Source of the DNA: Parahalioglobus pacificus
GTDB taxonomy: Bacteria; Pseudomonadota; Gammaproteobacteria; Pseudomonadales; Halieaceae
DNA length: 64,000 nt
Direction of reading: 5' to 3'
NCBI RefSeq assembly: GCF_014652275.1
Contig: NZ_BMYM01000001.1
Coordinates: forward strand, 496,001-560,000
Shown here: positions 1,193-33,164 of the stretch, one piece after another
Position numbering within the stretch: position 1 is the stretch's first letter
Layout of the letters: each line of letters opens with the position of its first letter
Notes under the pieces: model-generated
Seen by the model: only the letters and a program-made list of their open reading frames with translations
Told to the model about the DNA's origin: nothing
The model's database searches: none
Program-made: the position numbers and the translations under genes

Positions 1193-1971
1193 AGCAAACG
1201 ATAAGGGTGTTAGCCGCAGCAGCGGCGCTGGTGTTCGGCGCAGGATGCGTGACCACCACTACAGGTGGATTTACGGACAAAGCATCCCCGGAAGAGGCGC
1301 TGGAGCGCCGCGTTGAACTCGCCCGCCAGTACATCGGTGAGGGAAACTGGGAAAATGCCAAACGCAACCTGAAGTTGGCGACGGAAATCGATCCCAACAA
1401 TCCAGAAGTGTATGAAGCCTTCGCCCTGGTTTACCAGAGTACCGGTGAGTGGGAGCTGGCTGAGGAAAGCTTCCAGCGTGCTATTCGCCTGGATAAAAAC
1501 TTCTCCCGTGCGCGCAACAACTACGCCGCCTTCCTATTCAGCCAGCAGCGTTACGAAGAAGCTGAAAAGCAGTTGGAAGCGGTCACCGCAGATACGCTGT
1601 ACAACGCGCGTCCGCAAGCCTTCGTCAATCTTGGCCTGTGCCGACTGCAGCTATTTGATTCACAAGGCGCAGAAGAAGCCTTCATGCGGGCCCTGGCGAT
1701 GGACAGGCGAAACCCCATATCGCTGCTCGAAGTTGCGCAGTTGCGGTACGAGGCAGAGGATTACGATAATGCTGAGCGCTACTACGGTGTCTACCGCACC
1801 GTGGTTAGGCAGCAGTCTGCCCGCGCCCTCTGGTTTGGTATTCGATTGGCTGACGCCACGGATGACAAAGACGCAAGCAGCAGCTATGCCCTGGCGCTTG
1901 AAAATCTGTATCCGCAATCCGCAGAGTACAAGGCCTATCAGCGTGCCGAGTCAGGCGTAAACGGCGAATAG
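1189..1971 (+). CDS. pilF: Type IV pilus assembly lipoprotein PilF/PilW (TPR)
   Basis: Outer-membrane pilotin-like lipoprotein needed for assembly of the PilQ secretin in type IV pili. The 260-residue product begins with a lipoprotein signal ending FGAGC, with C20 as the lipidated residue. Tandem tetratricopeptide repeats follow (repeats such as [30 protein letters not shown]), matching the family's length and its usual place after rlmN. The GTG start overlaps the rlmN stop. In most gammaproteobacteria rodZ follows; here only 46 bases separate this gene from ispG. The family call is firm; a role in twitching or adhesion depends on pilus genes elsewhere. Confidence 0.92.
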
Positions 1972-2017
1972 ACGAGTGATGGCACTGGCTTGGTAGAGCT
2001 CCGTGCAGGATGTGTAA

Positions 2018-3148
2018 ATGAATACCCAGTCCCCGATTAAACGCAGGAAGAGCCGTCAGATTATGGTCGGCGACGTGCCTGTTGGCGGCGATGCGCCTAT
2101 CAGCGTGCAAAGCATGACCAACACCGAGACCTGCGATGTACCCGCAACAGTGGCGCAGGTGAATGCCATCGCTGAAGCGGGCGCCGATATTGTGCGTGTT
2201 TCCGTACCCAGTATGGATGCGGCTGAGGCATTTCGGGCGATTCGCCAGCAGGTGTCGGTACCGTTAGTGGCGGATATTCACTTTGATCACCGCATTGCAC
2301 TCAAGGTGGCTGAGTACGGCGTGGACTGTCTGCGCATCAACCCCGGAAACATTGGTCGCGATGACAAAGTACGTGAGGTCATTGATAGCGCCCGTGACAA
2401 GGGCATCCCGATCCGAATTGGCGTAAACGCCGGCTCACTGGGTAAAGACCTACAGCGTAAGTATGGCGAGCCCACGGCCGAGGCATTGGTGGAGTCGGCC
2501 CTTCACCACGTGGATATTCTCGACAAGTTTGACTATCCCGATTTCAAAGTCAGTGTGAAAGCGTCTGAAGTGTTTATGGCGGTGGACGCCTATCGACTGT
2601 TGGCCAAACAAATCGAGCAGCCATTGCATTTGGGCATCACGGAGGCTGGCGGCTTGCGCGGCGGTACGGTGAAGTCCGCCGTCGGTCTGGGCATGCTGTT
2701 GATGGACGGCATCGGCGATACGATTCGAATCTCCCTAGCGGCCGATCCGGTAGAAGAGGTCAAAGTGGGCTTCGAAATTCTGAAAAGCCTCAAGCTGCGC
2801 GCCAACGGCATCAACTTCATTGCCTGCCCCAGTTGCTCGCGACAGAACTTCGATGTGATTGGCACCATGAATACCCTGGAGCAGCGCCTGGAAGATATCC
2901 GCACGCCCATGGATGTGGCAGTTATCGGCTGTATTGTGAATGGTCCGGGCGAAGCGCGTGAGGCGGATGTCGGCCTTACCGGAGCAAGCCCCAATAATCT
3001 GATATATGTGGGCGGTGAGCCGGATCATAAGGTAAGCAATGAAGACTTTATCGACCATCTGGAACAGGTGATCCGACAGCGAGCATCGGCGCTGGAAGAA
3101 CAGCGCGCCGCTGACGAGGCCAACATCATCCACAAGACCACCGCCTGA
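2018..3148 (+). CDS. ispG: 4-hydroxy-3-methylbut-2-enyl diphosphate synthase (flavodoxin) IspG/GcpE
   Basis: [4Fe-4S] enzyme of the MEP isoprenoid pathway, converting methylerythritol cyclodiphosphate to HMBPP. The 376-residue product shows the N-terminal TIM-barrel ([27 protein letters not shown]) and the cluster ligands C270 and C273 (CPSCSRQ) and C305, followed by the NGPGE ligand/catalytic segment with E312. This is the short bacterial form without the plant insert. The ATG at 2018 is preceded by GCAGGA. It lies between pilF and hisS as usual, but without rodZ. Its presence matters because an HMG-CoA reductase gene also lies in this window (59295-60479). Confidence 0.97.
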
Positions 3149-3171
3149 AACCCGGCATTACTGGAGCACGC

Positions 3172-4461
3172 GTGACCACGATCAAAGCGATTCGGGGGAT
3201 GAATGACATACTCCCGGAGCACACCCCTTACTGGCAGAGGCTGGAAAGCACGGTGTCAGGCCTTCTGGCCAGCTATGGCTATGGCGAGATCCGCCTGCCT
3301 ATTGTGGAGCACACTGAACTGTTCAAGCGCTCCATCGGCGAAGTCACCGACATTGTCGAAAAAGAGATGTACTCCTTCGACGACCGTAACGGTGAAAGTC
3401 TGACACTGCGCCCCGAGGGTACGGCAGGGTGTGTCAGGGCCGCCATTCAGCAGGGTCTGCTGAGTGTGCCGCAGCGTATGTGGTACGCAGGTCCGATGTT
3501 CCGCTACGAGCGTCCGCAGAAGGGGCGCCAGCGCCAGTTTCACCAAATCGGTGTAGAGGCCTTTGGCACAGCCACGCCCGACATCGACGCCGAGCTGATC
3601 TTATTGACTGCCCGCCTGTGGCGCCTGCTGGGTATTGATCAGCACGTGACCCTCGAGCTCAATTCAATAGGCTCGTCACAAGCCCGGGCAGACTATCGCG
3701 CTGCACTGGTGACCTGGCTGAGCGAGCGTCGCGAGCAGCTGGACGAGGACAGCCAGCGCCGCCTGGAGAGCAACCCGCTGCGCATACTGGACAGCAAGAA
3801 TCCGGATACCCAGGCATTGCTGGACAACGCCCCCAATCTGGCGGACTTCCTTGATGAGGAATCGGTGGCAGATTTTGCCCGCGTCTGCGATCTGCTGGAT
3901 GCCTGTGGTGTTTCCTATACGATTAATCGGAGGCTGGTCCGAGGCCTGGATTATTACAACAAGACAGTGTTTGAGTGGGTCACCAGCGAGTTGGGTGCTC
4001 AGGGTACCGTTTGCGCCGGTGGACGCTACGACGGCCTTGTTGAACAGTTGGGCGGCAAGGCCACGCCGGGCATTGGGTTTGCCATGGGGGTAGAGCGCCT
4101 GGTGCTGCTGATTGAGGCCGTGGGTGCGCAAGCGCCTGCGCCCGAGAGGGCAGATGTATATGTGGTCGCCGTGGGTGATAATGCACACCGCACCGCATTG
4201 GCTGCTATCGAAGCGCTGAGAACAGCGCTGCCGGAATTGCGCGTTATTCAGCACGTGGGCGGCGGCAGTTTCAAGAGCCAGTTAAAAAAAGCCGACAAGA
4301 GTGGCGCCGCAGTGGCGTTGATTGTCGGTGAGGACGAGGCGGCCGCAGGGGTGGCCGGACTCAAACCCTTGCGTGGGCAGGGAGAGCAGACTCAGGTCGC
4401 ACTGGGTGACCTCGCCGAGAACGTTTCCAACATCGTGATGCAGGACATCACCGCAACATAA
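3172..4461 (+). CDS. hisS: Histidyl-tRNA synthetase
   Basis: Class II aminoacyl-tRNA synthetase that charges tRNA-His. At 429 residues it is the normal bacterial length. Visible landmarks are motif 2 ([21 protein letters not shown]), the histidine-specific [12 protein letters not shown] and AGGRYDGL motifs, the motif 3 segment [11 protein letters not shown] and a C-terminal anticodon-binding domain. The GTG start at 3172 is supported by GGAG six bases upstream. It sits 23 bases after ispG and 17 bases before yfgM, consistent with one transcript. Confidence 0.97.
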
Positions 4462-4478
4462 ACCGCAGGAAAGAGAAC

Positions 4479-5171
4479 GTGGAACAGTACCGCACAGAAG
4501 AAGAACAGGTAGAGGCGCTCAAGCGTTGGTGGGATGAGAACGGCAAGGCAACCATCGCCGCGATCCTGCTGGCACTGGTGGCCGGCTTTGGGTGGCAGGG
4601 ATGGCAAGGTTTCCAGCAGGAACAGCTGGCAACCGCCTCCGACAGCTACCAGCGTCTGCTACAAGCCATGAGCACACCTGAAACCGGTGAGCCTGATACA
4701 GCTGCGGCACGCGAGATCGCCGGGCAAATCAAGAAAGAGTATGGCGGCAGCACGTATGCGCAGTTTGCTGCCCTGCACCTGGCACGTATGGCGGTGAACG
4801 ACGCGGATCTGGCAACAGCCGAAGCAGAGCTGCGCTGGGTTTTGGCCAAAGCTGATGCCGGCAGTGACATCGCCCAGATCACTCAATTGCGCCTGGCTCG
4901 TGTGCTGGCATCAAGTGGTGATACCACACAGGCATTAACGCTGTTGGACGCCGGCGCCGATGGCGACTACGCGGGCGCCTATGCGATGGCCCGTGGAGAT
5001 GTCTTCATGATGCAGGGCGATGAGTCACAGGCACGCGCGGCGTACAGCGAAGCCCGTGTGCTGGCAGCTGCAGACGCAACGCTGCCACCACTGGCTACCC
5101 TGGAGCAGAAGCTGCAGAGTTTGAATCCGCAGGCGCCAGAGATGACGGGGACAACAGCTGATGAGGGGTAA
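4479..5171 (+). CDS. yfgM: YfgM family inner-membrane TPR chaperone/ancillary SecYEG translocon protein
   Basis: The 230-residue product has a short cytoplasmic N-terminus (TEEEQVEALKRWWDENG), one transmembrane helix at about residues 25-43 (ATIAAILLALVAGFGWQGW) and a periplasmic tetratricopeptide domain. In E. coli YfgM associates with the SecYEG translocon and PpiD and helps periplasmic protein folding. The N-terminal EEQVEALKRWW..NG block is characteristic of the family, and the hisS-yfgM-bamB-der order is conserved. The GTG start follows an AGGAAAGAG Shine-Dalgarno region. The gene ends just upstream of bamB, whose own SD lies inside the last codons of this gene. Confidence 0.93.
   Translation: MEQYRTEEEQVEALKRWWDENGKATIAAILLALVAGFGWQGWQGFQQEQLATASDSYQRLLQAMSTPETGEPDTAAAREIAGQIKKEYGGSTYAQFAALHLARMAVNDADLATAEAELRWVLAKADAGSDIAQITQLRLARVLASSGDTTQALTLLDAGADGDYAGAYAMARGDVFMMQGDESQARAAYSEARVLAAADATLPPLATLEQKLQSLNPQAPEMTGTTADEG
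5163..5168 (+). promoter_or_regulatory. Shine-Dalgarno that sets the bamB start
   Basis: GAGGGG lies inside the final yfgM codons, seven bases before the ATG at 5176. An in-frame ATG at 5161 would sit upstream of this SD, so the 5176 start is preferred and implies translational coupling to yfgM. Confidence 0.7.
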
Positions 5172-5175
5172 TGCC

Positions 5176-6345
5176 ATGTTGCGACTGCCCCTGGTAGTCC
5201 TGCTCTCGCTGGCGCTGTCTGCCTGTAGCACAATCAGTGGCTGGTTCGAGGTCGATGACGACACAGACCTCACCGCCCCTGTTGATCTGGTAGATATCGA
5301 AACCAGCGTGAAAGTCCGCAAACTGTGGTCGGTGGGTGTGGGCAATGGCCAGGGCGAGGGCCTGTACAAAATCCAGCCGGCGATTTCCGGCGATATTATT
5401 TACGCCGCGGCCGCTGATGGTGAGGTAGTGGCGGTTGATCGAACCAATGGGCGCACCCAGTGGGACGTTGAATTGGAGACCGGTCTCGCCGGCGGCGTTG
5501 GCCTGCACAGTGGTTCGGTCTTGTTGGGTGGTAGTGACGGCGCGGTGATTCGCCTGGACGCCCAAACCGGCACAGAATTGTGGCGCACTCGCCTGACCGG
5601 TGAAGTGCTCGCTGCCCCTCAGGGCGATGGACGCGTGGTGGTTGCCCAAACCTACGACGGTAAATTGGTTGGGCTGGATTATGACTCCGGCGAGAAGCTT
5701 TGGACCTACGATAGCAATGTGCCAGTACTGACCATCCGCGGTACGAGCACTCCAATACTGAATAATGGTGTTGTCTACGCGGGCTTCGCCAACGGCAGAG
5801 TCAGTGCCTTCGACGCCATGACCGGCGCAGTGCGTTGGGAATCCCGGGTGGCCATCGCCGAGGGTCGCTCCGAAATCGAGCGTATCGTCGACGTTGACGG
5901 CACCATGGTGCTCATGGGTAACGAACTTTATGCTGCCAGTTACCAGGGGCGTGTGACGGCCCTGAATATTCAGGACGGACGCAAGCTGTGGCAACGCAAT
6001 ATCTCCTCGTTCTCCGGCGTCTCCCAGGGGTTTGGTAACGTCTATGTAGTGGACGAAGATGGCACCGTAACCGCCTACCTGCGCAATGGCCAGGGCGTGC
6101 GCTGGCAACAGGATGCTCTGGGTTATCGCGAGCTATCCCGCCCCACACCTGTCAGCAGTTACCTGGCAGTGGTCGACTTCGAAGGCTACCTGCACCTGAT
6201 GTCGCAGGTGGATGGCACCTTCGTTGGCCGTGAACGGCCCGACGGCGACGGCGCCCGCGCTGACATGCTCAGTGATGGCAATGTGCTGTACGTGTATGGC
6301 AACAGCGGCAAGCTGATTGCCTATGAAATCACCGCCGATAACTAG
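5176..6345 (+). CDS. bamB: Outer membrane protein assembly factor BamB (beta-propeller lipoprotein)
   Basis: Lipoprotein subunit of the BAM complex that inserts beta-barrel proteins into the outer membrane. The 389-residue product begins with a lipoprotein signal ending LSAC (C17). It continues as PQQ-type WD-like blades with recurring A(A/F)DGxVxAxDxxTGxxxW repeats, for example AAADGEVVAVDRTNGRTQW and GFANGRVSAFDAMTGAVRW, forming the eight-bladed propeller. Length and neighbours (yfgM before, der after) are typical. It is read in the frame giving the signal peptide; a long antisense frame over it is a composition artefact. Confidence 0.96.
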   Translation: MLRLPLVVLLSLALSACSTISGWFEVDDDTDLTAPVDLVDIETSVKVRKLWSVGVGNGQGEGLYKIQPAISGDIIYAAAADGEVVAVDRTNGRTQWDVELETGLAGGVGLHSGSVLLGGSDGAVIRLDAQTGTELWRTRLTGEVLAAPQGDGRVVVAQTYDGKLVGLDYDSGEKLWTYDSNVPVLTIRGTSTPILNNGVVYAGFANGRVSAFDAMTGAVRWESRVAIAEGRSEIERIVDVDGTMVLMGNELYAASYQGRVTALNIQDGRKLWQRNISSFSGVSQGFGNVYVVDEDGTVTAYLRNGQGVRWQQDALGYRELSRPTPVSSYLAVVDFEGYLHLMSQVDGTFVGRERPDGDGARADMLSDGNVLYVYGNSGKLIAYEITADN

Positions 6346-20383: not shown

Positions 20384-22174
20384 CTAGCGACCCACTGCAA
20401 TGCGATTAGCAATGGTATCGTCGTCCAGAGCCATAGAAGCTAGCAACCGTTGCATCCGCGGATGATCGCCCAGCGCGGGCATGTCCTGAATAAACGACTT
20501 GAGGTGCCAGCGCAGCCAGAAGTCCCTTTCGCGATTGGCCTGCACCAACATATCCACAGCGTCATCAATGCGTCCCATGGATGCAAGACTGAGCCCTACT
20601 GTAGTGGCTGACCAGGTTTCGCTGTTCCTGCGCTTTTCCTGCATATAGTCCAGCAGGGTTTCGGCCTGCTGCAGATCGCCATTGATTACATGCGCCTGCA
20701 ACAGGTACTGGGTCTGAAATCCATTCTGTTCGCCGACCCTGGCGATTGACTGCTCGGCGACTTCACGTAGCCGCTGGCCGTCGCGCTGGCGATAATACAC
20801 ATCAGACAGCACGGCTGAAACCAGGAAATTACTGCCGTCGTCTAATCCGGTGTCCTGTACGTAGGCCAGCGCCTCCGCGTAGTTGCCGTTACGACTTTCG
20901 TTCATGGCCAGTGCGAAGCGCATCAGCAGGTTATCCGGGTCTTCACCCAACTGCGCCAGCAATTGTTCAGTGAGCTCACTTTGGCGCAGTTGTGGTATCA
21001 GGTAGGTTGAGTGGTAGACATACAGCGTCAGATCCCTGTCCCGCTCCTGATCCAGTACGCGCGCATAGTCCTCGTAGGCTGAGTCCAGTCCTTTCTCGAT
21101 AACGCCCTTGATCAGGGTTGCTGGAATGTTGCCGGGGTCATTGCGCAAGGCCAGCTCCGCAGACTCCGCCGTGGCCGCAACCGTGGTAGCGAAGTCGGAA
21201 TAAATGCCCATATACCCAAGACAGAAAGCCAGGTACCCATGCGCGCTCCAGTAGTTTGGATCCAGTGACAGCGCCTGTTGGAAGGCCGCCATTGCCGCGC
21301 CAAAATTCTGCTGGCTGGGATCCTGAAATGCGTAGCGGCCGCGCAGGTTCAGGTTGTAGGCATCCACATTCTTGGTGTCAGAAATAATAATGGGGCTCTC
21401 GTCCAGGGCCAGCGGACCGCGCAGGGCAACCACGAGTGAACGGGCCAGGTTTTCTTCGATGTCGAAGATGTCCTGGAATTCGCTGTCATAAGAGTCAGAC
21501 CAGATCTGGAAGCCGGTTTCTACGTCGGTCAGCTGCGCGGATACACGAAGCCGCGCATCCTGACGGCGAATACTGCCTTCCAGGATTTGTCGCACGCCCA
21601 GCGCAGTACCGATCTCAGTGGCATCCATATCGCGGTACTGAGCGGCAAAAGAGGAGGTACGACTCGCCACCTGCAGACCGCCGTTTCGCGTGAGTCCATT
21701 GAGTACGGCTTCAGCGATGCCATTGCCCAGATACTGGTTCTCACCGCCTTCGCTGAAGTCGATAAAGGGCAGCACGGCCAGGGACGCTTCATCCACTAGT
21801 TCACTTTGCGCAGCGGGCAGTGAATTGCTGGTGCGCCGGTCGCCGAAGTCGAGAAAGAACAGGCCAATAACAATCAGCAGGGCGGCGACGATTAGATAGT
21901 CGGGTAGTGTGGCGGGCAGGGGTTCGCCCTGATCTTCCAATTCATCCGCACGTTTGATGCCGTCCGGTGTAATTTCGAAGGCCCACGCGATGATGAGAGC
22001 GATAGGGAAAAATAAAACCAAGAGCAGGGTCATGGTTTTGCCAATCCACTCGGGGGCTTCGAACATCGGCAGAACATTGGCCAGTATTTCGATCAGCACC
22101 CAGCCCACAGCGACGTAGATGCCGGCGATCCGAAATACGTGCCTGCGGCGCATCTCGCGCCAGAAGCTCATCAT
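20384..22174 (-). CDS. Membrane-anchored TolB-like/TPR protein
   Basis: 596 residues. The N-terminus has about three hydrophobic helices (residues about 13-33, 46-66 and 90-108) separated by the AFEITPDGIKRADEL segment common to CadC/adenylate-cyclase-associated proteins. A TolB-like domain follows (SLAVLPFIDFSEGGENQYLGNGIAEAVLNGL, QILEGSIRRQDARLRVSAQL), then several TPR-like repeats to the C-terminus. There is no DNA-binding or cyclase domain, so this is the stand-alone version. Its role is unknown; such proteins may act as periplasmic sensors. It is divergent from the lipoxygenase gene across a 164-base spacer. Confidence 0.78.
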   Translation of the reverse strand: MMSFWREMRRRHVFRIAGIYVAVGWVLIEILANVLPMFEAPEWIGKTMTLLLVLFFPIALIIAWAFEITPDGIKRADELEDQGEPLPATLPDYLIVAALLIVIGLFFLDFGDRRTSNSLPAAQSELVDEASLAVLPFIDFSEGGENQYLGNGIAEAVLNGLTRNGGLQVASRTSSFAAQYRDMDATEIGTALGVRQILEGSIRRQDARLRVSAQLTDVETGFQIWSDSYDSEFQDIFDIEENLARSLVVALRGPLALDESPIIISDTKNVDAYNLNLRGRYAFQDPSQQNFGAAMAAFQQALSLDPNYWSAHGYLAFCLGYMGIYSDFATTVAATAESAELALRNDPGNIPATLIKGVIEKGLDSAYEDYARVLDQERDRDLTLYVYHSTYLIPQLRQSELTEQLLAQLGEDPDNLLMRFALAMNESRNGNYAEALAYVQDTGLDDGSNFLVSAVLSDVYYRQRDGQRLREVAEQSIARVGEQNGFQTQYLLQAHVINGDLQQAETLLDYMQEKRRNSETWSATTVGLSLASMGRIDDAVDMLVQANRERDFWLRWHLKSFIQDMPALGDHPRMQRLLASMALDDDTIANRIAVGR

Positions 22175-22338
22175 TGTTCAATACCCCCAGTGGCGCAGTC
22201 TGCGCTTGAACAAAAGCCATCTCAAGACTAACTTTCTTACCCAACAAATGCTATGTAGGTTTGTACACAACAAAACCAGGCGTAGTCCAATTGCAGGAGC
22301 ACAGACGCCTTATCGCCAAACTACAAGGAAGCTTTGCG

Positions 22339-25011
22339 ATGCATGTGTTGGGTAAGTTGGGCCTTTGGCTCATGGTTGCGGGAATCATTGCATTGGTTGC
22401 GATGAATTCGTTGTTCAGTCGCAGACGGATGTCACACGACAACGGTATGGTGTGCAGGGCGCGGATTAAAGTGCTGGATGATGTGGCGATTCCACCCAGC
22501 GCATTTTTCGCGCCGGGAAAGGAGTACCCCTGTCGATTCAGGCATGCGTCGGTGTCCTTTGCCGACGATGCGCGACTGGTAGTGCGCAGCGCCTCGCTCA
22601 AATTCTCCGATACTGATCATCAAAGCCCGTTGGACATCATGATGAACACGGGCACGGCCGGGCCTTTCTCCAATGCCTGGCACTTTCTCAAGTTTATGAT
22701 TGCCACCATTCGTGGACGCGAGAAGCACATCAAACCGTATCTGGACCAGTACCCGGACCTGGCTAAGGGCATTACCCAGTCCATCTGCTACCCCGACACC
22801 TTTGCGCTGTTGAATTATCACAGTAAGACGGCACTGGGGTATCGCGACAGCAATGGCAAGGACTGGTACATCAAGTTCAAACTTGCACCCTGGGATAGGG
22901 GCCCCGACCGCGGCAGGCCGACCGACGAGGAGCTTGAACAGTTCTGGCTGCAGGCGCCCAAGGAGGGTGAAACACGCTCTCGCAACTTCCTGAAAGATGA
23001 ATACCGCAGGCGCATAAAGCAGGGCCCGGTGAAATACCACTTGCAAGCACAGTTTCATCCCGTGACCCCGGGTGAGGACCGCATTGTGTTGGATTGCGGC
23101 GTGGCGTGGGACGAAGAAAGTCACCCCTGGCAGGACCTGGCCGAGGTTGAGGTGTATGAGGTGGTGCCTACCGATGAGGGCAATATCACCTGGTACGACG
23201 TGAACAATCACCCTCCCAATATGTACATACCGGAGGCGCAGTCCATTCTCGACCCGGCATCGATTAACTACCTGCGAGCCAAGGATGGTCTGGCAAAGCG
23301 CGCGAGAATGCAGGGCTACCAATGGTTTGGGCAGCTGCCACCACTGGTGGACGATCGGCAGGGCGGCCGCTGTGCACTGCCGCGGATCTGCTTGCCGGCT
23401 GACGAACCTGACGCCACGTCTGAAATGCGTGCTGATGAGTTAATCAGCCAGCGCGACATTTATGTGTTCAAATCCGATGACGGTTTACCGCCCTACGCGA
23501 AGTACTTACCGAAGAACGAAGAATTCACCACGGCAAAAAGCCGCGGGATGATTAAAACCATGGGCTACGGTCTGCTTAATGGTTTTATCTCTGAGTTTGA
23601 GGAGATCTTTGAGCGACGCCGTTCACTGGCCACCTTCGACCGCCACTACCCCCTATGGAAAAAGCCACCGGTCAGTGACCGCTTTGGCAGTGACCTGGAG
23701 TTCGGTCGCCAGCGCATGAACGGCGTCAATCCGGTACTCATCAAACGTTGCACGCGTTTACCGGACAAGTTCCCGGTCACCAATGACATGGTGAAGCCGC
23801 AGCTCGACGAGGGCGATACGCTGTCCAAGGCTGCACGTCGTGGCAGTCTGTATTTGTTGGACCACGAGGCTGTCGGGGGTATACCGATCAAGAACGGGTA
23901 TCTGGCGGTGCCTATCAGCCTTTTCTATTGCAATGGGCGGGGCCAGCTTGTGCCGCTTGCGATTCAGTTGGAGCAACAATCAGGCCCGGATGTGCCCATA
24001 TTTACGCCCAATGACCCCTACTGGTTGTGGACCACGGTGAAGGCCTACGTGCAAGCGGCCGATGCGCTATATCATGAGGTGGCATCTCACCTGTTGCGCA
24101 CACACATGGTTATGGAAACCTTTGTGGTGGCCACTCACAGACAACTGCATCATCGCCACCCGGTACATCAGTTACTGCTGCCGCATTTCCACGCCACGCT
24201 TGCCATTAACCACTCTGCCAGAAGTGTCATGCTGGCGCCTGGCGGGCCTATCGACAAAACCCTCTCACTGGGCGCTGCAGGCTGTATGGAGCTGCTGAAA
24301 TGCGAATACCAGAAGTGGGATTTCAGTCAGTGTCATTTGCCCTCGGACCTCAAAAATCGGGGTGTAGATGATGTCAAAAAATTGCCGCAGTACTTCTACC
24401 GCGACGATGGCCTGTTGATCTGGCAGGCGCTAGATCGATTTGTGGGATCAGTGCTGGCCCACTGGTATCCGGATGACGCGGCACTGGCTAGTGACGCTGA
24501 ACTGCAAGCCTGGATTGCCGAACTCGCCGATCCTGAAGTGGGTAAGGTTAAGGGCTTGCCTGAAGGCGGTAAGCTCACGCAGCGTGATTCACTGCAACAG
24601 GTGCTCACCGCAATTATCTTCACCTGTACAGCGGAGCATGCCAGCGTGAATAACGGGCAATACGATATGTTCGGCTATCCGCCCAATGTGCCCGGTTCTA
24701 TGTATGCGCCGTACCCCACCAGCAAAGCCAATGCCATGAGCGAGGAAGACTTTGTTGCCTGTCTGCCCAACCACGGCAAGTGTGATGCGCAAATGCAGAT
24801 GGTGTATTTGTTGAGCCAGCCTACGCGCTGGCAGATCGGCAACTTTGAACAACCATACTTCCACGGCGTGCAGCAAATCTGGCACATGGTGAAGGACTTT
24901 CGCGCAGAGCTGGCGAGCATTTCTGCCACCATTCAGGAACGCAATCGCGGGGTGGAAGTCCCCTATCGATACCTCGATCCTGTGCAAATAGGGGAGAGCA
25001 TCGCAATCTAG
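22339..25011 (+). CDS. Membrane-anchored lipoxygenase with N-terminal catalase-like (allene-oxide-synthase-like) domain
   Basis: 890 residues in three parts. Residues about 6-26 form one transmembrane helix. Residues about 33-317 resemble coral allene oxide synthase (catalase fold): FFAPGKEYPCRFRHAS, VRSASLKF, PLDIMMNTG, QGPVKYHLQAQFHP, WDEESHPWQDLA. The distal haem His aligns with H33, but the position of the proximal Tyr aligns with G317; the nearest RxxxY is R323-Y327. From about residue 327 a lipoxygenase domain follows with all five iron ligands: H584, H589, H767, N771 and the C-terminal I890. It should dioxygenate polyunsaturated fatty acids. The ATG at 22339 has AAGGA upstream. It is divergent from the TPR gene and convergent with egtD. 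Confidence 0.9.
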   Translation: MHVLGKLGLWLMVAGIIALVAMNSLFSRRRMSHDNGMVCRARIKVLDDVAIPPSAFFAPGKEYPCRFRHASVSFADDARLVVRSASLKFSDTDHQSPLDIMMNTGTAGPFSNAWHFLKFMIATIRGREKHIKPYLDQYPDLAKGITQSICYPDTFALLNYHSKTALGYRDSNGKDWYIKFKLAPWDRGPDRGRPTDEELEQFWLQAPKEGETRSRNFLKDEYRRRIKQGPVKYHLQAQFHPVTPGEDRIVLDCGVAWDEESHPWQDLAEVEVYEVVPTDEGNITWYDVNNHPPNMYIPEAQSILDPASINYLRAKDGLAKRARMQGYQWFGQLPPLVDDRQGGRCALPRICLPADEPDATSEMRADELISQRDIYVFKSDDGLPPYAKYLPKNEEFTTAKSRGMIKTMGYGLLNGFISEFEEIFERRRSLATFDRHYPLWKKPPVSDRFGSDLEFGRQRMNGVNPVLIKRCTRLPDKFPVTNDMVKPQLDEGDTLSKAARRGSLYLLDHEAVGGIPIKNGYLAVPISLFYCNGRGQLVPLAIQLEQQSGPDVPIFTPNDPYWLWTTVKAYVQAADALYHEVASHLLRTHMVMETFVVATHRQLHHRHPVHQLLLPHFHATLAINHSARSVMLAPGGPIDKTLSLGAAGCMELLKCEYQKWDFSQCHLPSDLKNRGVDDVKKLPQYFYRDDGLLIWQALDRFVGSVLAHWYPDDAALASDAELQAWIAELADPEVGKVKGLPEGGKLTQRDSLQQVLTAIIFTCTAEHASVNNGQYDMFGYPPNVPGSMYAPYPTSKANAMSEEDFVACLPNHGKCDAQMQMVYLLSQPTRWQIGNFEQPYFHGVQQIWHMVKDFRAELASISATIQERNRGVEVPYRYLDPVQIGESIAI

Positions 25012-25027: not shown

Positions 25028-26005
25028 TTAGCTTGCTACGCGGAGGAAGTGCACGCTGAAGAGTTGTTCGGCATCTATCCAGGTATGCTGGTGTTGCAGG
25101 CCTGCCTGTCGCGCAAGTGCAATGAAGTCTTCCTCCGCGTACTTGTAGGAGTTTTCTGTGTGCAGCGTGTCACCTGACTCAAAAGTGATGGTTTGACCCT
25201 CGCTGGATTGTGACTGGGCGGTTAACGCTTCCAGGTGCATCTCTATGCGGCGTAGGTCCTCGTTGTAGAAAGCCCGGTGCGCGAACTGCTGTGGGTCGAA
25301 GCTGACGGACAATTCGTGATTCACCCGTTGGATAAGGTTGCGATTGAACGCCTCGGTGACGCCGTCGGTGTCGTTATAGGCGGCGTTAAGTCTTGGCGTC
25401 GATTTGTGCAGGTCTACGCCGATGATGGCAGCACCCTCCGGCTCCAAAACATCGCGCACCTGTTTCAGGAATCCGCAGGCCGCTTCCGGTTCCAGGTTGC
25501 CGATGGTTGAACCCGGGTAGAAAATCACGCGCCGCCCCGGCGGCAATGCCTTTGTGAAATCCCAGCTGCGATTGAAGTCCGCGCAGACCGCGTGCACTGA
25601 TAGCCATGGCATATCCTGCGCCAGGGAGCGGGCTGATTGCTGCAGAAAATCGGCTGATATATCAACGGGCACAAATACCTTGGGTCTTATTGCCGGTAGT
25701 AACAGCCGCGCTTTCTCGCAGCTTCCGCTTCCCGGTTCTATAAGGACACAGTCAGGGCCGCAGAGGTCAGCGATGCCTGCGGCGTGATTTATCAGCAGCT
25801 GCTTCTCGGTCCGTGTTGGGTAGTATTCCTGCGTTCGGGTGATCGCATCAAACAGCTGTGAGCCAGCCTCGTCATAGAACCACTTGGGGCTGATGGTTTT
25901 TGGCGAAGCCACCAAGCCCGCGAGTAGTTCGGCGCGACCATCACCGGCACTGGGGTGATAGTCGGTGAACCGGTAATTGCCGGCACTGCGCGGGTCACTG
26001 GTCAT
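25028..26005 (-). CDS. egtD: L-histidine N-alpha-trimethyltransferase EgtD (ergothioneine synthesis)
   Basis: SAM-dependent enzyme that trimethylates histidine to hercynine, the first step of ergothioneine synthesis. The 325-residue product matches the family length. Visible signatures are LLAGLVASPKTISPKWFYDEAGSQLFDAITRTQEYYPTRTE, the SAM-binding IEPGSGSCEKARLLL, VPVDIS, FYPGSTIGNLEP and the C-terminal HTENSYKYAEEDF. The ATG at 26005 is supported by GGAG six bases upstream; an ATG at 26017 is less likely. It overlaps the end of egtB by 11 bases, so the two are co-translated. Confidence 0.95.
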   Translation of the reverse strand: MTSDPRSAGNYRFTDYHPSAGDGRAELLAGLVASPKTISPKWFYDEAGSQLFDAITRTQEYYPTRTEKQLLINHAAGIADLCGPDCVLIEPGSGSCEKARLLLPAIRPKVFVPVDISADFLQQSARSLAQDMPWLSVHAVCADFNRSWDFTKALPPGRRVIFYPGSTIGNLEPEAACGFLKQVRDVLEPEGAAIIGVDLHKSTPRLNAAYNDTDGVTEAFNRNLIQRVNHELSVSFDPQQFAHRAFYNEDLRRIEMHLEALTAQSQSSEGQTITFESGDTLHTENSYKYAEEDFIALARQAGLQHQHTWIDAEQLFSVHFLRVAS

Positions 26006-27272
26006 GCGCATCTCCATTGAGCGCGCCCGAGTGCGCCAGGCGAATGCCGCTAAATTGCCAGCGATCGGGTGGGTAAAAGAAATTGCGGTAGGAACTGCGC
26101 AGGTGATCACCTACCGACACGCAGGAGCCTCCGCGCAAAACCCACTGATTACTCATAAATTTGCCGTTGTACTCACCGATGGCTCCGGAGGCCGGATTGA
26201 ATCCGGGGTAGGGGCTGTACGCACTGCTGGTCCATTGCCAGCAGGCACCGTAAAGCTGATCGAGGGCCTGGCCGTTCTGAGCGGGGGCAGGGTGCAGGTA
26301 TCCCTGTTCTATACCCGTGGGCACTGCGTTTGCCTGGTTCGCCGCGTATTCCCATTCTGCTTCTGTGGGCAGACGGTAGCCCGCCCAGCGGGCGTAGGCG
26401 TCCGCTTCATAGCCGCTCACGTGTGTCACCGGCGCCTCAGGGTGGCGTGGCTGCAGGCCATAGAGCGTAAACTCCATAGCCACTCCATTAACCTCGCGCC
26501 AATACAGCGGTGCCTCCCACGCCTGTGTTTGCACGGTGGTCCATCCATCGGCAAGCCAGAACTCCGGGCTTTGATAGCCGCCTTCGGCGACGAACTGACC
26601 GTATTCGCGATTGGTGACAAGGCGTTGTGCCAGGGCAAAAGGCTCTATCCATTGTTTGTGCGCGGGCAATTCGTTATCGAAGCAAAAAGCATCACCCCGG
26701 TAACCGATCGTTTCCAGGCCGCCATCATAATGATCAAAGGCGAGTTCATCGGCGTGGGCTGCCGCAGCAGTTTGAGGTGGCTCAGCAAAAGCGGGATAGA
26801 GTGGGTTAAAGGCAAAGGAGTATTTGATATCCGTGTACAGCAACTCCTGGTGCTGACATTCGTGCTCAATTCCCAAGCGGGTGCGCTCAGCGATCTGCTC
26901 GACGTTAGCGCTATCCATGGTGTGCAGTAGCTGAAGCATGGCGTCATCAACTTGTGCACGGTAAGTCAGTATGTCGGCCACGGAGGGGCGAGACAGTAGG
27001 CCACGCCTGGGGCGGGGGAACTGCTCTCCCACTCCATTGTAGTAGGAGTTGAACAATACCTCGTAGCGTTCATCGACACTGGTGTAATCGGTGGCGAAAG
27101 GCTTAAGCAGGAAGGTTTCAAAAAACCAGCTGGTGTGCGCAAGGTGCCACTTGGGTGGGCTGACAAAAGGCTCTGCCTGTAAGCCGTAGTCTTCTGCTGA
27201 CAAGCCTACGCACATGGCCCTAGAGCGCGCACGGGTAGACTCAAATGCTCTAATGAGTGCTTCCACGTTCAC
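25995..27272 (-). CDS. egtB: Hercynine oxygenase EgtB (ergothioneine C-S bond-forming enzyme)
   Basis: Non-haem iron sulfoxide synthase that joins hercynine to a thiol (gamma-glutamylcysteine or cysteine). The 425-residue product has an N-terminal DinB-like domain with the iron ligands in KWHLAHTSWFFE and HECQHQELLYTD (HxxxE/Q-H pattern). The formylglycine-generating-enzyme fold follows, with PVTHVSGYEADAYARWAGYRLPTEAEWEYAA and GACWQWTSSAYSPYPGF. The GTG start at 27272 overlaps the stop of the PhzF-like gene (GTGA). Whether it uses cysteine or gamma-glutamylcysteine cannot be read here; no egtA, egtC or egtE is in the window. Confidence 0.95.
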   Translation of the reverse strand: MNVEALIRAFESTRARSRAMCVGLSAEDYGLQAEPFVSPPKWHLAHTSWFFETFLLKPFATDYTSVDERYEVLFNSYYNGVGEQFPRPRRGLLSRPSVADILTYRAQVDDAMLQLLHTMDSANVEQIAERTRLGIEHECQHQELLYTDIKYSFAFNPLYPAFAEPPQTAAAAHADELAFDHYDGGLETIGYRGDAFCFDNELPAHKQWIEPFALAQRLVTNREYGQFVAEGGYQSPEFWLADGWTTVQTQAWEAPLYWREVNGVAMEFTLYGLQPRHPEAPVTHVSGYEADAYARWAGYRLPTEAEWEYAANQANAVPTGIEQGYLHPAPAQNGQALDQLYGACWQWTSSAYSPYPGFNPASGAIGEYNGKFMSNQWVLRGGSCVSVGDHLRSSYRNFFYPPDRWQFSGIRLAHSGALNGDAHDQ

Positions 27273-28021
27273 AGCGGCTCTCTCGCTTTTTCTACCAGAC
27301 CACCAATCCAAACCTGTTTATCGTCCAGGCGGCTGAGCAGTAGTCCTCCGCGGGGCGAGCATTGGTAGGCGCACAGGGTTTCTGCGCCGCGATGCTTGCG
27401 CCAGTACGCGGCCAGTAACCTTAGGGCCGAGCCCGTGGCGCTGTCCTCGGGGTTACCGTACTGCGGCGCAAAGTAGCGCAGCGCAATGTTGGTCTGAGTG
27501 CTCGTGGTATCCAGCAGGCAGGTGGCAATTATTGCACGCTGTGTGTGCTTGGTAAGATCGCCGTCTGGAGCGGTCAGTGACATCAGCGTATCCAGATCCG
27601 TGTATTCAAGTACCAGGTAGCCCTGATCGGGGCCACTGGCCTCTACCCGTACCGGTGCTTTGCCCAGCCGGTCAATCATCCAGCGATGTGTATTGCCTTC
27701 TTGGAGAGACGCGAGAGGCATTGCCACCCAGAACGTGTCGCCCTCACTGTCCACCTCGAAACGGCTGTTGCCCATATGCAGTGTATTGACGCTTGCATTA
27801 GAGTCTCGCCAAAAGGCGGCAGCACTCAATAAACCGTGTCCGCATAGCGAAATAGCGTTGCCGCGTTGCTGGCAGTCGACCTGCGCACGGTTGTCTCCCA
27901 GGTGCTGTGTGTGGCACTCGGCGAGATTACTGCTTGAAGTTGCTACTTGTTCGGTCGGCGCGGAAAACACTGCACAGGGGTTGCCTCGCAGTGCTCGCCC
28001 CTGCCAGGGCGTTTTTGCCAC
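27269..28021 (-). CDS. PhzF-family isomerase-like protein in the egt operon
   Basis: PhzF/trans-2,3-dihydro-3-hydroxyanthranilate isomerase fold, 250 residues from a GTG at 28021. Recognisable blocks are RGNPCAVF near the N-terminus, SLCGHGLLSAAAF and GNPEDSATGSALRLLAAYW. The conserved family start (a strand reading LYNVF) is encoded just upstream of the GTG in the same frame with no ATG, GTG or TTG. A CTG at 28064-28066 with AGGGA before it is therefore a possible true start. The gene overlaps egtB by four bases, which implies co-translation, but PhzF has no established role in ergothioneine synthesis. Confidence 0.78.
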   Translation of the reverse strand: MAKTPWQGRALRGNPCAVFSAPTEQVATSSSNLAECHTQHLGDNRAQVDCQQRGNAISLCGHGLLSAAAFWRDSNASVNTLHMGNSRFEVDSEGDTFWVAMPLASLQEGNTHRWMIDRLGKAPVRVEASGPDQGYLVLEYTDLDTLMSLTAPDGDLTKHTQRAIIATCLLDTTSTQTNIALRYFAPQYGNPEDSATGSALRLLAAYWRKHRGAETLCAYQCSPRGGLLLSRLDDKQVWIGGLVEKAREPL

Positions 28022-28152
28022 AAAGACGTTGTAGAGCGAAGCTGATGCTGTGGGGTAAGAGATCAGATCGTCCCTGATGTGATGTTGTTAGTTGTCAGAC
28101 TAGCACTTTTTTGTGATAAGGCGCGCACTCAGGCCGGGATATCTCTATCCAT

Positions 28153-29667
28153 TCAGCGTGGCTTCAGGTGTTGGGGGATTAGCCCGCGCTCGAGCAGCTC
28201 AAACAGCAGCTCCACGGCAATTGCCAGTAATGCCGCGGGGATGGCGCCTTCCAAGATCAGGCGCGAGTCGTTCAGGTTAAGCCCTGTGATAATCGGTTCG
28301 CCAAGGCCGCCGGCACCCACGAAGGCGGCTAGGGTGGCAGTGCCTATGCTGATAATGGCCGCGGTTTTCACTCCCGCCAGTATCGCCGGTAACGCCAGGT
28401 GCAACTCCACCTTGAGGAGTTGCTGGCGCCGACTCATACCCATACCGCGGGCCAGTTCCTTCAGTGTAGGATCGAGGGCAAACAACCCTGTGAGCGTGTT
28501 GCGCACGATGGGCAGCAGCGAGTAGAGGAACAGCACGGTGATGGCCGGCGCTAAGCCAAGCCCCATCACAGGTATCAGCAAGGCCAGTAAGGCGAGAGCA
28601 GGTATGGTCTGTAATAAGCCGGTGACGTATAGCAGTCCTCGCGCCAGCTGTTCACGATTTGCAACAGTAACAGCGAGCGGTATGGCTACCAGGCAGGCCA
28701 GCGCCAGGGCTGTCAGGGTCAGCTGAAGATGCACAGCCGTATTTCGTGCCACCCTGACCATCAACGTATCTCGCGCAGTGGCGTTAGAGGCTATATTGAT
28801 TGTCTTCAAAAATTCACTGGCGGCCGTAGCAGGGGATACCTTGTCAACAGCGACGCGCCGGTTGAGCGCACGCATGGTGGGTTCATCCAGAGCGCCTTCC
28901 AGCGTCTGCAGTACCTGCGCAGCGTTGTCTGGTAGCTCCCGATTGGCCAGCAGCAGCGCGTCGTACCGTGGGAAAAATTCGCGATCATCCGTAAGCAGGC
29001 GCAAGTTGAAATTGTCCAGTTCGCCGTCGGTGGTGTAAGCGTCGGTGATGTCTATGCTGCCGCCGCTTAGCGCGCCATAGGCGAGCGCGTGTTCAAGCCC
29101 CACTGTTGCCTGTGTCAGTCCGTAGTGGCGTTTGAGCGCTGGCCAGCCGTCACCGCGATTCAGGAACTCATGGGAAAACCCTGCTGACAGGTCCGGATGT
29201 TGCGCCAGGTCGGATATCTGCGTCATTCCAAGCGCCTCAGCGGTCTCCTCCGTAACGGCCAGCGCATAACTGTTATTGAAACCCAAGGCCGCGACACTGA
29301 CGAGGGACTCTGCTGCAAGCGCCGCCGGCAGTTGCTGGACGCTGAGGTTTCGACCGGAATAAATAGCTTGTAGCAGCGTGCCCGAATATTCCGGGTAAAG
29401 ATGAATCTCGTTGTTCTTAAGCGCCTCCCAGGTGATCAGGGTGCCACCCAGGCCCAGCCGTCGTTCCATCGTGAAGCCATTTGCCTCAAGCAACTGTGCG
29501 CTGATCTCCGCCAGAATGAAGTTCTCAGTGAATGGCTTGGAGCCCACAACGATGGTTTGAGCGCTGGCATCAGCGGGGTAATGCCAGAGCATTGATGCCA
29601 GCATAAGTACCAGAGCCAGCCAGGAACGGCCACGCCGGTAAATGCCCGGACTATTCACTGCCAGCAT
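28153..29667 (-). CDS. ABC transporter substrate-binding protein fused to permease (OpuBC-OpuBB type; EgtU-like by context)
   Basis: 504 residues. A signal peptide (ending YPADASAQ) is followed by an OpuAC-type binding domain (VVGSKPFTENFILAEISAQLLE, LYPEYSGTLLQAI, DITDAYTTDGELDNF). From about residue 295 comes a permease domain of about six helices with the EAA-like loop (LARGMGMSRRQQLLKVELHLALPAILAGVKTAAIISIGTATLAAFVGAGGLGEPI). The family imports betaines and choline. Ergothioneine is itself a betaine, and the genes downstream are phzF-like, egtB and egtD on the same strand, so ergothioneine or hercynine uptake is a plausible inference. Domain order is binding protein first, the reverse of characterised EgtU. 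Confidence 0.9.
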   Translation of the reverse strand: MLAVNSPGIYRRGRSWLALVLMLASMLWHYPADASAQTIVVGSKPFTENFILAEISAQLLEANGFTMERRLGLGGTLITWEALKNNEIHLYPEYSGTLLQAIYSGRNLSVQQLPAALAAESLVSVAALGFNNSYALAVTEETAEALGMTQISDLAQHPDLSAGFSHEFLNRGDGWPALKRHYGLTQATVGLEHALAYGALSGGSIDITDAYTTDGELDNFNLRLLTDDREFFPRYDALLLANRELPDNAAQVLQTLEGALDEPTMRALNRRVAVDKVSPATAASEFLKTINIASNATARDTLMVRVARNTAVHLQLTLTALALACLVAIPLAVTVANREQLARGLLYVTGLLQTIPALALLALLIPVMGLGLAPAITVLFLYSLLPIVRNTLTGLFALDPTLKELARGMGMSRRQQLLKVELHLALPAILAGVKTAAIISIGTATLAAFVGAGGLGEPIITGLNLNDSRLILEGAIPAALLAIAVELLFELLERGLIPQHLKPR

Positions 29668-30391
29668 CCAATAACTGAGCCAGAACCGCCTCTGGCGCCT
29701 GCCCGGGAAACTGCGCCTCGATCTGTGTTCGAGAGCGCTGCTTCACGATACGTCCGGCGTCCATCACTACCAGGTGTTGCGCCAGCGAGAGGGCTTCGCG
29801 GCTGTCATGGGTAACCAATACCGCAGTTGTTGGCTCGGCATCAAGCATGACAGAAAGCTGGTGTTGGACATCGGTCCGTGTGATGGGATCGATAGCGGCA
29901 AAGGGCTCATCTAAGAGCAGAATATCCGGCTTCAACATCATTGCCCGGCACAGGCCTATCCGCTGCTGTTGCCCGCCGCTGAGCTGATGGGGGTAGCGCT
30001 CCAGTAACTCCGGATCGACATGGGCCAGGGTGGTCAGCGTACTCACGCGATCCTGTATGTCTTCTGCGGGCCACTGCTCTAGCTCGGCCATCAGTATGAT
30101 GTTGGCCCTTGCGGTCAGGTGGGGGAAGAGTCCGCTGCCTTGCACTGCATAGCCAATCCGTCGGCGAACTTTCGTCAAATCAGCCTGCGCCAGATCCTCG
30201 CCCAGGGCGTATACACAACCGCTGTCCGGCTGCAGTAGTCCGTTGCACAGCTTGAGCAAACTGGATTTGCCGCAGCCACTGCGCCCGACAATGGCGGTTA
30301 AGGCCGCGTTTGGGAAGTCGACACTGACATCGTCCAGTGCAGTGACATCCCCGTAGCGCTTGTTCACTGAAGACAGGGACAGCTGAGGCAT
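29651..30391 (-). CDS. ABC transporter ATPase partner of the osmoprotectant/EgtU-like system
   Basis: 246-residue ATPase of the quaternary-amine uptake type. It has Walker A GRSGCGKSS, a Q-loop (YAVQGSGLFPHLT), signature LSGGQQQR, Walker B ILLLDEP and switch His VTHDSREAL. No C-terminal CBS domains are present, unlike some osmoregulatory OpuAA proteins. The ATG at 30391 (MPQLSL) is preferred over the GTG at 30415. Its end overlaps the start of the fused permease gene by 17 bases. It is the promoter-proximal gene of the minus-strand cluster and is divergent from the molybdenum hydroxylase genes. Confidence 0.9.
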   Translation of the reverse strand: MPQLSLSSVNKRYGDVTALDDVSVDFPNAALTAIVGRSGCGKSSLLKLCNGLLQPDSGCVYALGEDLAQADLTKVRRRIGYAVQGSGLFPHLTARANIILMAELEQWPAEDIQDRVSTLTTLAHVDPELLERYPHQLSGGQQQRIGLCRAMMLKPDILLLDEPFAAIDPITRTDVQHQLSVMLDAEPTTAVLVTHDSREALSLAQHLVVMDAGRIVKQRSRTQIEAQFPGQAPEAVLAQLLDAGSE

Positions 30392-30474
30392 GGCGCCATG
30401 TAAACACGAAGCCACAGTAATTGGCAGGGTTGGGGCCTTCTTCTATATTGGCGATTGAACGCGGAGGATTGCGA

Positions 30475-30930
30475 ATGAAGATCACGGTTAATGGAAAGCA
30501 GCGCACGGTGGATGTCGAACCCGACACGCCACTGTTGTGGGTACTGCGCGACGAATTGGCGATGCGCGGCACCAAGTTTGGCTGTGGTGCGGGTCTGTGC
30601 GGCGCCTGCACAGTACACATGGATGGCAAAGCCATGCGCGCCTGCGTATTGCCCGTTTCGGCGGTAGGTGATGCCGAGATACGCACCATTGAAGGACTCT
30701 CTGAAGACGGTAGCCATCCGCTGCAGCAGGCATGGGCCGATCATAATGTGCCCCAGTGCGGTTACTGTCAGTCTGGGCAAATCATGAGTGCTGCCGCCTT
30801 GTTGGCCGTCAACGCGATGCCCAGTGATGAGGAGATCGATACGGCCATGGCGGGCAATATTTGCCGCTGTGGTACATACCCACGGATTCGTGCGGCCATT
30901 CGTCAGGCTGCGGAGGCAGAGCAATCATGA
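30475..30930 (+). CDS. [2Fe-2S] subunit of a molybdenum hydroxylase (isoquinoline 1-oxidoreductase alpha type)
   Basis: 151-residue electron-transfer subunit of the xanthine-dehydrogenase family. The plant-ferredoxin-type cluster is bound by C37, C42, C45 and C57 ([15 protein letters not shown]). The second, helical-domain cluster is bound by CGYC (QCGYCQSGQ) and CRC ([12 protein letters not shown]). The ATG at 30475 has GGAGG seven bases upstream. The stop overlaps the start of the large subunit gene (ATGA). No FAD subunit is encoded nearby, which is typical of the IorAB and aldehyde-oxidase types that pass electrons to cytochromes. Confidence 0.95.
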
Positions 30931-33164
30931 CTGTCCTCGAGAAAATCAGCCGACGCGACTTCCTTAAGGCAACAGGCGTCTCCAGTAGCGGGCTATTGAT
31001 AGGCGCTGCGCTGCCCACCACGCTACGAGCAGACGTGTTGCAGCGCCCTTCGGGCGATGCGCTCAACCTTTTCGTTAGTCTGCGTGAAGATGGCACCGTT
31101 GAGATTATTGCCCACCGCTCTGAGATGGGCACGGGTATACGCACCAGTCTCCCGCAGGTGGTTGCGGATGAAATGGAGGCCGATTGGGATCGCGTGACCG
31201 TCATCCAGGGATTGGCAAGCGCCGACTACGGCAGTCAGAACACTGATGGTTCGCGCTCTGTACGCAACTTTTATACGGTGATGCGACAAATGGGCGCGGC
31301 GGCACGCAGTATGCTGGAATCATCGGCTGCGCAGCGATGGGATGTGCCTGTTTCTGAATGTCGCGCTAGTAACCACCGGGTAGTGCATAGTGATGGACGC
31401 AGCATTGGCTTTGGCGAGCTGGCAACGTCTGCCGCAGAACAGCCGCTACCTGCGCTGGATAGCCTGCCCCTGAAGTCTGCCGCTGATTTTCGCTACATCG
31501 GTAAAGACGTGCCCTCTGTCGATCTCGCTGATATGACGACTGGCGCGACCACCTACGGCGTCGATGTTGCGCTGCCCGGGATGTTGTATGCCTCCATTGA
31601 GCGGCGCCCGGTGATGGGTACATCGATCGAGAGCTTTAGCGCCGATGCTGCAAAAAAGGTGCGCGGTGTAGTGGCTGTAGAAGTGATTAAAGGTACCGAT
31701 CCCAATGGCTTTAAACCCATCGAGGGCGTTGCTGTGATCGCCGATAAAACCTGGTCGGCGATAAAAGGGCGTCAGGCACTCGCTGCCACCTGGACGGACA
31801 GTGCCCATAACAGTCACAGCGCAGATGTCTATTTGGACGAACTGATGGACGCGGTGTCCAGCAAACCCGGCGTGGTCGCCAGAGAGCGCGGTGATGTCGA
31901 TGCTGCATTGGCGGCGGGCAAGCGCGTTAGCGCCAGCTATCGCACGCCTTACCTGGCACATGCGTCCATGGAGCCCCCCATGGCAACCGCCTACGTGACG
32001 GAGCAGGGGTGCGAGGTTTGGGCCTGTACTCAAACGCCCCAAGCCACGCAGCAAACCGTGGCGGAGGTGCTGGGTCTTGCGCCTGAGAAAGTTACCGTGA
32101 ACGTGACCTTGCTCGGCGGTGGCTTTGGGCGCAAGTCCAAACCTGATTTCAGTGCCGAGGCCGCGCTGCTGTCACGCGCCGTTGGTAAACCGGTGCAGGT
32201 CGTGTGGACGCGCGAGGACGACATTCGCCATGATTATTTCCACTCCTGCTGTGCCCAGCATTATGAGGCGAGCATTGACGAATCAGGTGCGGTGACAGGC
32301 TGGCTGGCGCGGCAGGCCACACCGCCCATAGACACCACCTGGGACGCCTCCGCAGATTTGATGAGTGACGGTTCCCTGAGCCAGACCTTCGGTAGCATTC
32401 CATTCGCAATTCCCAACCTGCGCCTGGAGGGGCACCGCGCGCCGGCCCATGCCCGCATTGGATGGTTGCGCTCGGTGTACAACATTCCCTTCGGCTTTGG
32501 TGTGGGCAGCTTTGTCGATGAATTGGCTCACGCCGCGGACAAGGATCCCGCGGCATTCTGGATCGAGCTTATTGGTGAGGACCGCCTGCTGGACTTCGCC
32601 CCCGAGGGCTTCGAGTTCAGCAACTACGGTAAGCCACTCAGCGAATATCCCTACGATACGGCACGGTTCAAGGGCGTGATCCGTGAACTGACTGAAACTA
32701 TCCCCTGGGGTGAATCGTTGCCCGCGGGGCAGGGGTGGGGTATCGCCGCGGCGCGCAGCTTCCTGAGTTATGTTGCCGTGGCCTGCAAAGTGTCGGTTGA
32801 GGGGGACCAGCTGAAGGTTTTGGAGATGCACAGCGTGATCGACGCCGGTCTGGTTGTGAATCCTGATCGCGTGCATGCCCAGATGGAAGGCGCCATGATT
32901 TTCGGCCTCAGTCTCGCACTGATGGGCGAGATTACCTTTGAGGGCGGCGAGCCGCAGCAATCGAATTTCCATGACTATCCCGTGGCACGCATCAACCAGG
33001 TTCCGCGCGTCATACGCAATACCATTACGGCGTCGGATGCGCCGCCGGCGGGGGTCGGCGAACCCGGTGTGCCGCCAGTAGCGCCGGCTATCGCGAACGC
33101 GGTGTTTGCAGCAACGGGCAAGCGTCACCGCACCTTACCGCTGAACAAGGCGTATCGGGTCTAG
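30927..33164 (+). CDS. Tat-exported molybdopterin-binding subunit of IorB-type molybdenum hydroxylase
   Basis: 745-residue large subunit of the xanthine-dehydrogenase family, carrying the molybdenum cofactor. It begins with a twin-arginine motif, [10 protein letters not shown] (Arg 9-10), so the heterodimer should act in the periplasm, the small subunit hitch-hiking. Family landmarks are [34 protein letters not shown], and [18 protein letters not shown] at the C-terminus with the catalytic Glu. The substrate (aldehyde or N-heterocycle) cannot be read. Downstream lie xdhC and mocA, which mature the cofactor, and a lipoprotein cytochrome c that could accept its electrons. Confidence 0.92.

Follow-up and report, generated by a model that had tools for sequence, protein, structure and literature searches.

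Known fusions of catalase-related proteins and lipoxygenases

Catalase-fold enzymes of oxylipin pathways use a tyrosinate-ligated haem. In the allene oxide synthase-8R-lipoxygenase of the coral Plexaura homomalla (structures 1u5u and 3dy5), a catalase-fold domain (cAOS) is located N-terminally and a lipoxygenase (LOX) C-terminally, and the haem-site residues reported for cAOS are R64, T66, H67, R102, N137, Y353 and R360 (PMC5617202). A related enzyme, the hydroperoxide lyase-LOX of Capnella imbricata (cHPL), carries Phe at the specificity position 150. Bacterial fusions of a catalase-related protein with a LOX are published as well, for the cyanobacteria Acaryochloris marina and Anabaena PCC 7120 (PMC11719350). 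Fusions of this kind were thus already known, as had been pointed out in an earlier sequence-only reading of the locus described here, and joining the two domains is in itself no novelty. A search of the literature by titles and the beginnings of abstracts, reaching neither the original reports on the Acaryochloris and Anabaena proteins nor those on the coral enzymes, yielded no catalase-LOX fusion from proteobacteria.

A cAOS-like protein with RATH and RAIVY-x6-R motifs, 29% identical to the coral domain, is encoded on a plasmid of Sinorhizobium fredii NGR234 (locus L011) and, unlike the protein studied here, is not fused to a LOX. From positions 1880-5773 of that locus onward, a catalase ORF overlaps the cAOS-like frame and is followed by genes of a di-haem peroxidase and a patatin-like phospholipase, so that by its sequence the group looks like an oxylipin cluster. 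Another Sinorhizobium plasmid (L013) carries a cAOS-like gene that lacks its 5' part.

Organisation of the fusion gene and its product

The window analysed is a stretch of 64,000 nt of Parahalioglobus pacificus (NZ_BMYM01000001.1), and the coordinates of all its features are positions within it. A fusion protein of 890 amino acids is encoded on the plus strand, as are all its parts given below, by a single open frame (22339-25011) that runs from ATG to stop without internal stop codons and is preceded by a likely ribosome-binding site, AAGGAA (22325-22330). Two full-length homologues with 70% identity (L006 and L007) start at approximately the same place, giving three distinct fusion sequences; a further locus, L003 in genome G041, encodes the same protein as L006, and the two contigs are equal in length.

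Residues 3-26 (22345-22416) form a hydrophobic segment, which replaces residues 1-57 of cAOS and was predicted from hydropathy to be a membrane anchor or a signal. Its mean hydropathy over 19 residues is 2.2 (1.8-1.9 in the homologues), and it is the only strongly hydrophobic stretch of the protein, the best segment beginning past residue 40 reaching 1.16. The protein is therefore predicted to be membrane-anchored by its N-terminus, a cleaved signal peptide being the alternative. The segment ends four residues before R30 and seven before H33, the counterparts of cAOS R64 and H67, so the distal haem strand would sit beside the membrane.

The segment is followed by a cAOS-like catalase-fold domain (residues 27-340; 22417-23358), delimited by sequence and fold matches, a variable linker (residues 341-362; 23359-23424), defined by alignment to the coral protein and by pairwise identity, and a LOX catalytic domain (residues 363-890; 23425-25008), assigned from Pfam, structure matches and a tree. 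This is the domain order of the coral enzyme, as seen from the two-domain match to 3dy5, and each of the two domains is 33% identical to its coral counterpart. The first segment of this match ends at residue 314 (coral 350) and the second begins at residue 352 (coral 492); 38 residues thus separate the domains compared with 142 in coral. The roughly 100 residues missing (about 104) are presumably the coral PLAT domain. No PLAT domain was detected in the fusion protein by Pfam at E values up to 10, and Pfam and NCBIfam together gave the LOX match only, apart from one meaningless 10-bit match.

Catalase-like domain and its distal haem side

Residues 24-314 match the coral cAOS structures 1u5u (E 4e-50) and 3dy5 (E 4.5e-49), and a profile of the N-terminal domain built from three rows matched cAOS with an E value of 2.6e-52; 98 of 295 aligned positions (33%) are identical to coral cAOS. 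The fusion of a cAOS-like domain to a LOX, proposed by the sequence-only reading from alignment by eye, is therefore borne out. The profile search suggested there gave a divided answer: kinship with cAOS is clear, while the Pfam Catalase family (PF00199) gave no signal up to E 10 in any of the three N-terminal domains. Coral cAOS itself, used as a control, scores 18.6 bits against PF00199, also below the cut-off of 25, so Pfam cannot decide whether the domain belongs to the catalases.

The AlphaFold models were poor, with pLDDT of 40.7 for the full protein and 42.0 for the N-terminal domain with a three-row alignment. Foldseek ranked 1u5u first for the low-confidence domain model (E 8.6e-11), with a TM-score of just 0.42. 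In all, fold searches with this model (pLDDT 42.0) agree with a catalase fold at TM-scores of at most 0.42 and Z-scores of at most 8.7, and among the matches listed the aligned ranges stop at residues 258-262 of 323, i.e. before the proximal helix.

The haem site was compared by multiple alignment under five settings, with rows including the window protein, L006, L007, coral cAOS and the NGR234 protein. R64, H67, R102 and N137 of cAOS fall on R30, H33, R68 (22540-22542) and N103 (22645-22647) in all five settings, and these residues are invariant in the three fusion sequences; H33 had been correctly identified as the distal haem histidine. R30-M31-S32-H33 (22426-22437) corresponds to R64-A65-T66-H67 on the distal side of the haem (PMC5617202). 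Going by a paper title in the references of PMC10813956, the Thr-His pair is a distal hallmark, and here all three sequences have Ser-His instead (S32-H33), a conservative change. K60 and K107, the lysines proposed to bind the substrate carboxylate in cAOS, correspond to F26 and S73. F116 (22684-22686) aligns with the specificity position occupied by Leu in cAOS and by Phe in cHPL (L150 and F150; PMC5617202), which might be a weak hint of lyase chemistry, weak because the uncharacterised NGR234 protein has Phe there too. At the second specificity pair of cHPL, 176-177, the alignments disagree; the other differences from cHPL are the same as those from the Plexaura enzyme.

Proximal haem side

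The proximal segment comprises R313...G317...R323-x3-Y327 (23275-23319). R349 of cAOS falls on R313, not on R323, in all five multiple-alignment settings, anchored by the motif S-I-x-x-L-R. The site of Y353 is taken by G317 in three of the settings, by D316 in one and by Y327 in one, and this last setting pushes the Tyr of the NGR234 protein into a gap. Tyr is absent from the canonical haem position in the three sequences found, as the sequence-only reading had suspected. The particular role given there to glycine did not hold: residue 317 is G, I or S in the three sequences, and G317 is, judging from the alignments, not a conserved substitution.

R323 and Y327 are invariant in the three sequences, and so is the following GQLPPLVDDR (331-340). 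R323-x3-Y327 is the sole RxxxY within residues 23-345, in agreement with the sequence-only reading, which had named it as the only such motif near the site. Pairwise alignments reached Y327 in 10 of 27 settings (six of nine for the window protein, three of nine for L006 and one of nine for L007), and shuffling of the proximal stretch produced an RxxxY with Tyr in that zone by chance in 9.6% of cases. No clear equivalent of R360 is seen, the seventh residue after Y327 being P334 in place of the R360 of cAOS (PMC5617202); the NGR234 protein and a catalase-family protein have Arg there. Y327 may be regarded as a candidate displaced haem ligand, not more, and the alignment does not favour it.

Lipoxygenase domain and its relationship to animal enzymes

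Residues 449-875 match the Pfam lipoxygenase family PF00305 with an E value of 5.2e-77 (260.3 bits, cut-off 23.6). The LOX is complete, as had been proposed: all five iron ligands are present, H584 and H589 in an H-x4-H arrangement (24088-24105), H767 and N771 (24637-24651) and the C-terminal carboxylate of I890 (25006-25008), and they are invariant in the three homologues. From its sequence, this domain should oxygenate polyunsaturated fatty acids (PUFAs) to hydroperoxides. Alignment to coral shows A627 (24217-24219) where the 8R-LOX carries Gly, at the Coffa site; by the Coffa rule, Ala there leads to S stereochemistry, and S products would therefore be expected. The cyanobacterial fusions, compared here by description only, are reported to give R products (PMC11719350).

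In a phmmer search of solved structures, the LOX domain of the window protein scored 354 bits with human ALOX15B, its nearest solved LOX structure, 325 with coral 8R-LOX, 318 with 5-LOX and 265 with 5med, presumably a bacterial LOX and the best bacterial structure for this domain. Two control proteins showed the opposite preference: a bacterial LOX (L004) scored 306 bits for 5med versus 172 for the best animal structure, and a LOX from a Nostoc plasmid 370 versus 214. ALOX15B has a PLAT domain and no catalase domain. An unrooted tree built from 11 rows placed the LOX domains of all three fusions in one group with ALOX15B and coral 8R-LOX (99/99), outside which the six bacterial LOXs fell; only two rows of this tree are animal, the cyanobacterial fusions are absent from it and one bacterial row (L027) lies on a long branch. 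The composition of the gene is not foreign (GC 0.557, window 0.576). P. pacificus possesses a bacterial relative of coral AOS-LOX that lacks PLAT, is probably anchored in the membrane and has a LOX half that groups with animal enzymes, and with such a relative the origin of the coral fusion becomes testable by phylogeny.

The genome of P. pacificus contains no PfaA above the cut-off (best score 121.8 of 1010 bits) and six genes of the desaturase family, none of which exceeds an NCBIfam cut-off, so no pathway of PUFA synthesis can be named, and the substrate could be an exogenous lipid. A bacterial LOX is on record in a species without detected PUFAs (PMC11011848).

Distribution and conservation of the fusion

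Among 97 genomes, its own included, the fusion protein had matches in four: its own, G041 with the full-length protein at 70% identity, and G081 and G071 in the LOX part only. The survey of related genomes proposed by the sequence-only reading thus recovered the same fusion in two further distinct sequences, which a contig scan located at the loci L006 and L007, and did not find G317 conserved.

The N-terminal domain is present in two of 140 genomes of the family, again including P. pacificus. With the N-domain profile, two of 369 genomes of the class sample matched, the own genome and one with a frame of 60 residues containing a stop (E 4.7e-5), and two of 398 genomes of the phylum sample, the own genome and one with a catalase-family protein (E 6.9e-4); no convincing match beyond the own genome was therefore found in these 369 and 398 genomes. 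The samples are partial and hold no cyanobacterial genomes. LOXs of any kind are encoded by six of the 369 class genomes, P. pacificus among them. Four class genomes (G120, G133, G207 and G323) encode distant LOX-like proteins (L028-L035), which match PF00305 as two separate pieces of one frame of 623-726 amino acids. Searching 72,556 plasmid records gave 14 matches, none across more than 80% of the query, and the fusion is therefore in none of them. A further plasmid search led to Sinorhizobium and Roseomonas only, and five scans of viral contigs yielded no relatives.

Pairwise identities among the three fusion sequences are 75.8, 79.9 and 76.8% for the catalase-like domain and 69.5, 65.7 and 67.2% for the LOX domain. 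The former is more conserved in every pair, indicating that it is not decaying and arguing for a working domain, whether haem-bearing or haem-free. Residues 301-340, which include the altered proximal segment, are 75.0-77.5% identical, like the rest of the domain; the linker is at 31.8-50.0%.

Possible function of the fusion protein

The explanation we prefer, with a probability of about one half, is that the protein is tethered to the membrane and acts as a bifunctional oxylipin synthase, similar in kind to coral AOS-LOX or the cyanobacterial catalase-LOX proteins, in which the proximal haem site has been rebuilt. The C-terminal LOX would introduce O2 into a PUFA, probably in the S configuration, and the hydroperoxide might then be passed to the N-terminal domain, as the fusion suggests. 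This domain most likely still binds haem, since the distal machinery (Arg, Ser-His, Asn) of the hydroperoxide-metabolising catalase relatives is kept, and would rearrange or cleave the hydroperoxide. On the proximal side the conserved Arg is no longer followed by Tyr at the fourth residue, and if the ligand has been displaced, R323-x3-Y327, ten residues further on, is the likeliest motif to supply it.

Another possible explanation, somewhat less probable to our mind and still to be taken seriously, is the one put forward by the sequence-only reading, namely that the domain has become a haem-free pseudo-catalase, the fold of which binds a fatty acid or hydroperoxide and steers, stabilises or regulates the LOX at the membrane. 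The loss of the canonical Tyr in all three sequences, the unanimous placing of R313 on R349, the want of a clear R360 and the free variation at site 317 (G/I/S) all fit it, and so does the lack of any Pfam Catalase signal to E 10 in three domains where coral cAOS still reaches 18.6 bits. For a haem-free protein there is no obvious need to retain R30, H33, R68 and N103, as all three sequences do, although this counts as weak counter-evidence, the sequences being so alike. Either way, a constrained member of this group without Tyr at that place would reveal either that the haem ligand has been displaced or that the catalase fold can be used without haem.

A broader evolutionary proposal, which we regard as doubtful, is that the catalase fold gave up haem, or its tyrosinate ligand, and that strong selection has maintained it as a LOX partner at the membrane that handles lipid hydroperoxides, in a lineage of bacterial enzymes that shares a fused ancestor with the octocoral AOS-LOX. 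It is improbable that haem is bound without Tyr altogether, by another residue or in a five-coordinate or water-ligated site with unusual chemistry: an intact distal pocket and a missing canonical Tyr would suit such a site, but position 317 offers no conserved alternative ligand, and Y327 is the simpler candidate. An artefact of assembly or annotation, be it a frameshift or chimeric join close to the codon for Tyr or the erroneous fusion of two genes, is ruled out in practice, since two more distinct sequences from separate records (70% identity) share the organisation and the missing Tyr; nothing was found in its support, and the uninterrupted ORF speaks against it.

Genomic neighbourhood

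In the genome of P. pacificus, which is 99.98% complete, no catalase of family PF00199 was found at E values up to 1. Divergent from the fusion gene lies the gene of a membrane/TPR protein of 596 amino acids (20384-22174, minus strand), which adjoins the fusion in all three distinct loci. Among the 140 family genomes, the two best matches of this protein are in the two fusion-bearing genomes, the own one and G041 (58% identity, full length). The next best by score reaches 225 bits with 29% identity over nearly the full length, and some member of this broad protein family occurs in 65 of the 140. A functional tie between the two divergent genes is plausible from this analysis.

On the other side, the minus strand at 25028-30415 carries genes of an EgtD-like Methyltransf_33 protein, an EgtB-like FGE/DinB protein and a PhzF-like protein, and beyond these the genes of an OpuAC/permease fusion and of an ABC ATPase; the ergothioneine-type names are our assumption from the domains. 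Lying beside the egt genes, the transporter might serve to take up ergothioneine. A link of ergothioneine to the fusion was considered and rejected, as the neighbours of L006 differ on that side and the contig of L007 shows none. Further downstream, the plus strand at 30421-33164 encodes 2Fe-2S and molybdopterin-binding oxidoreductase subunits, presumably of the xanthine dehydrogenase type, to judge by their domains.
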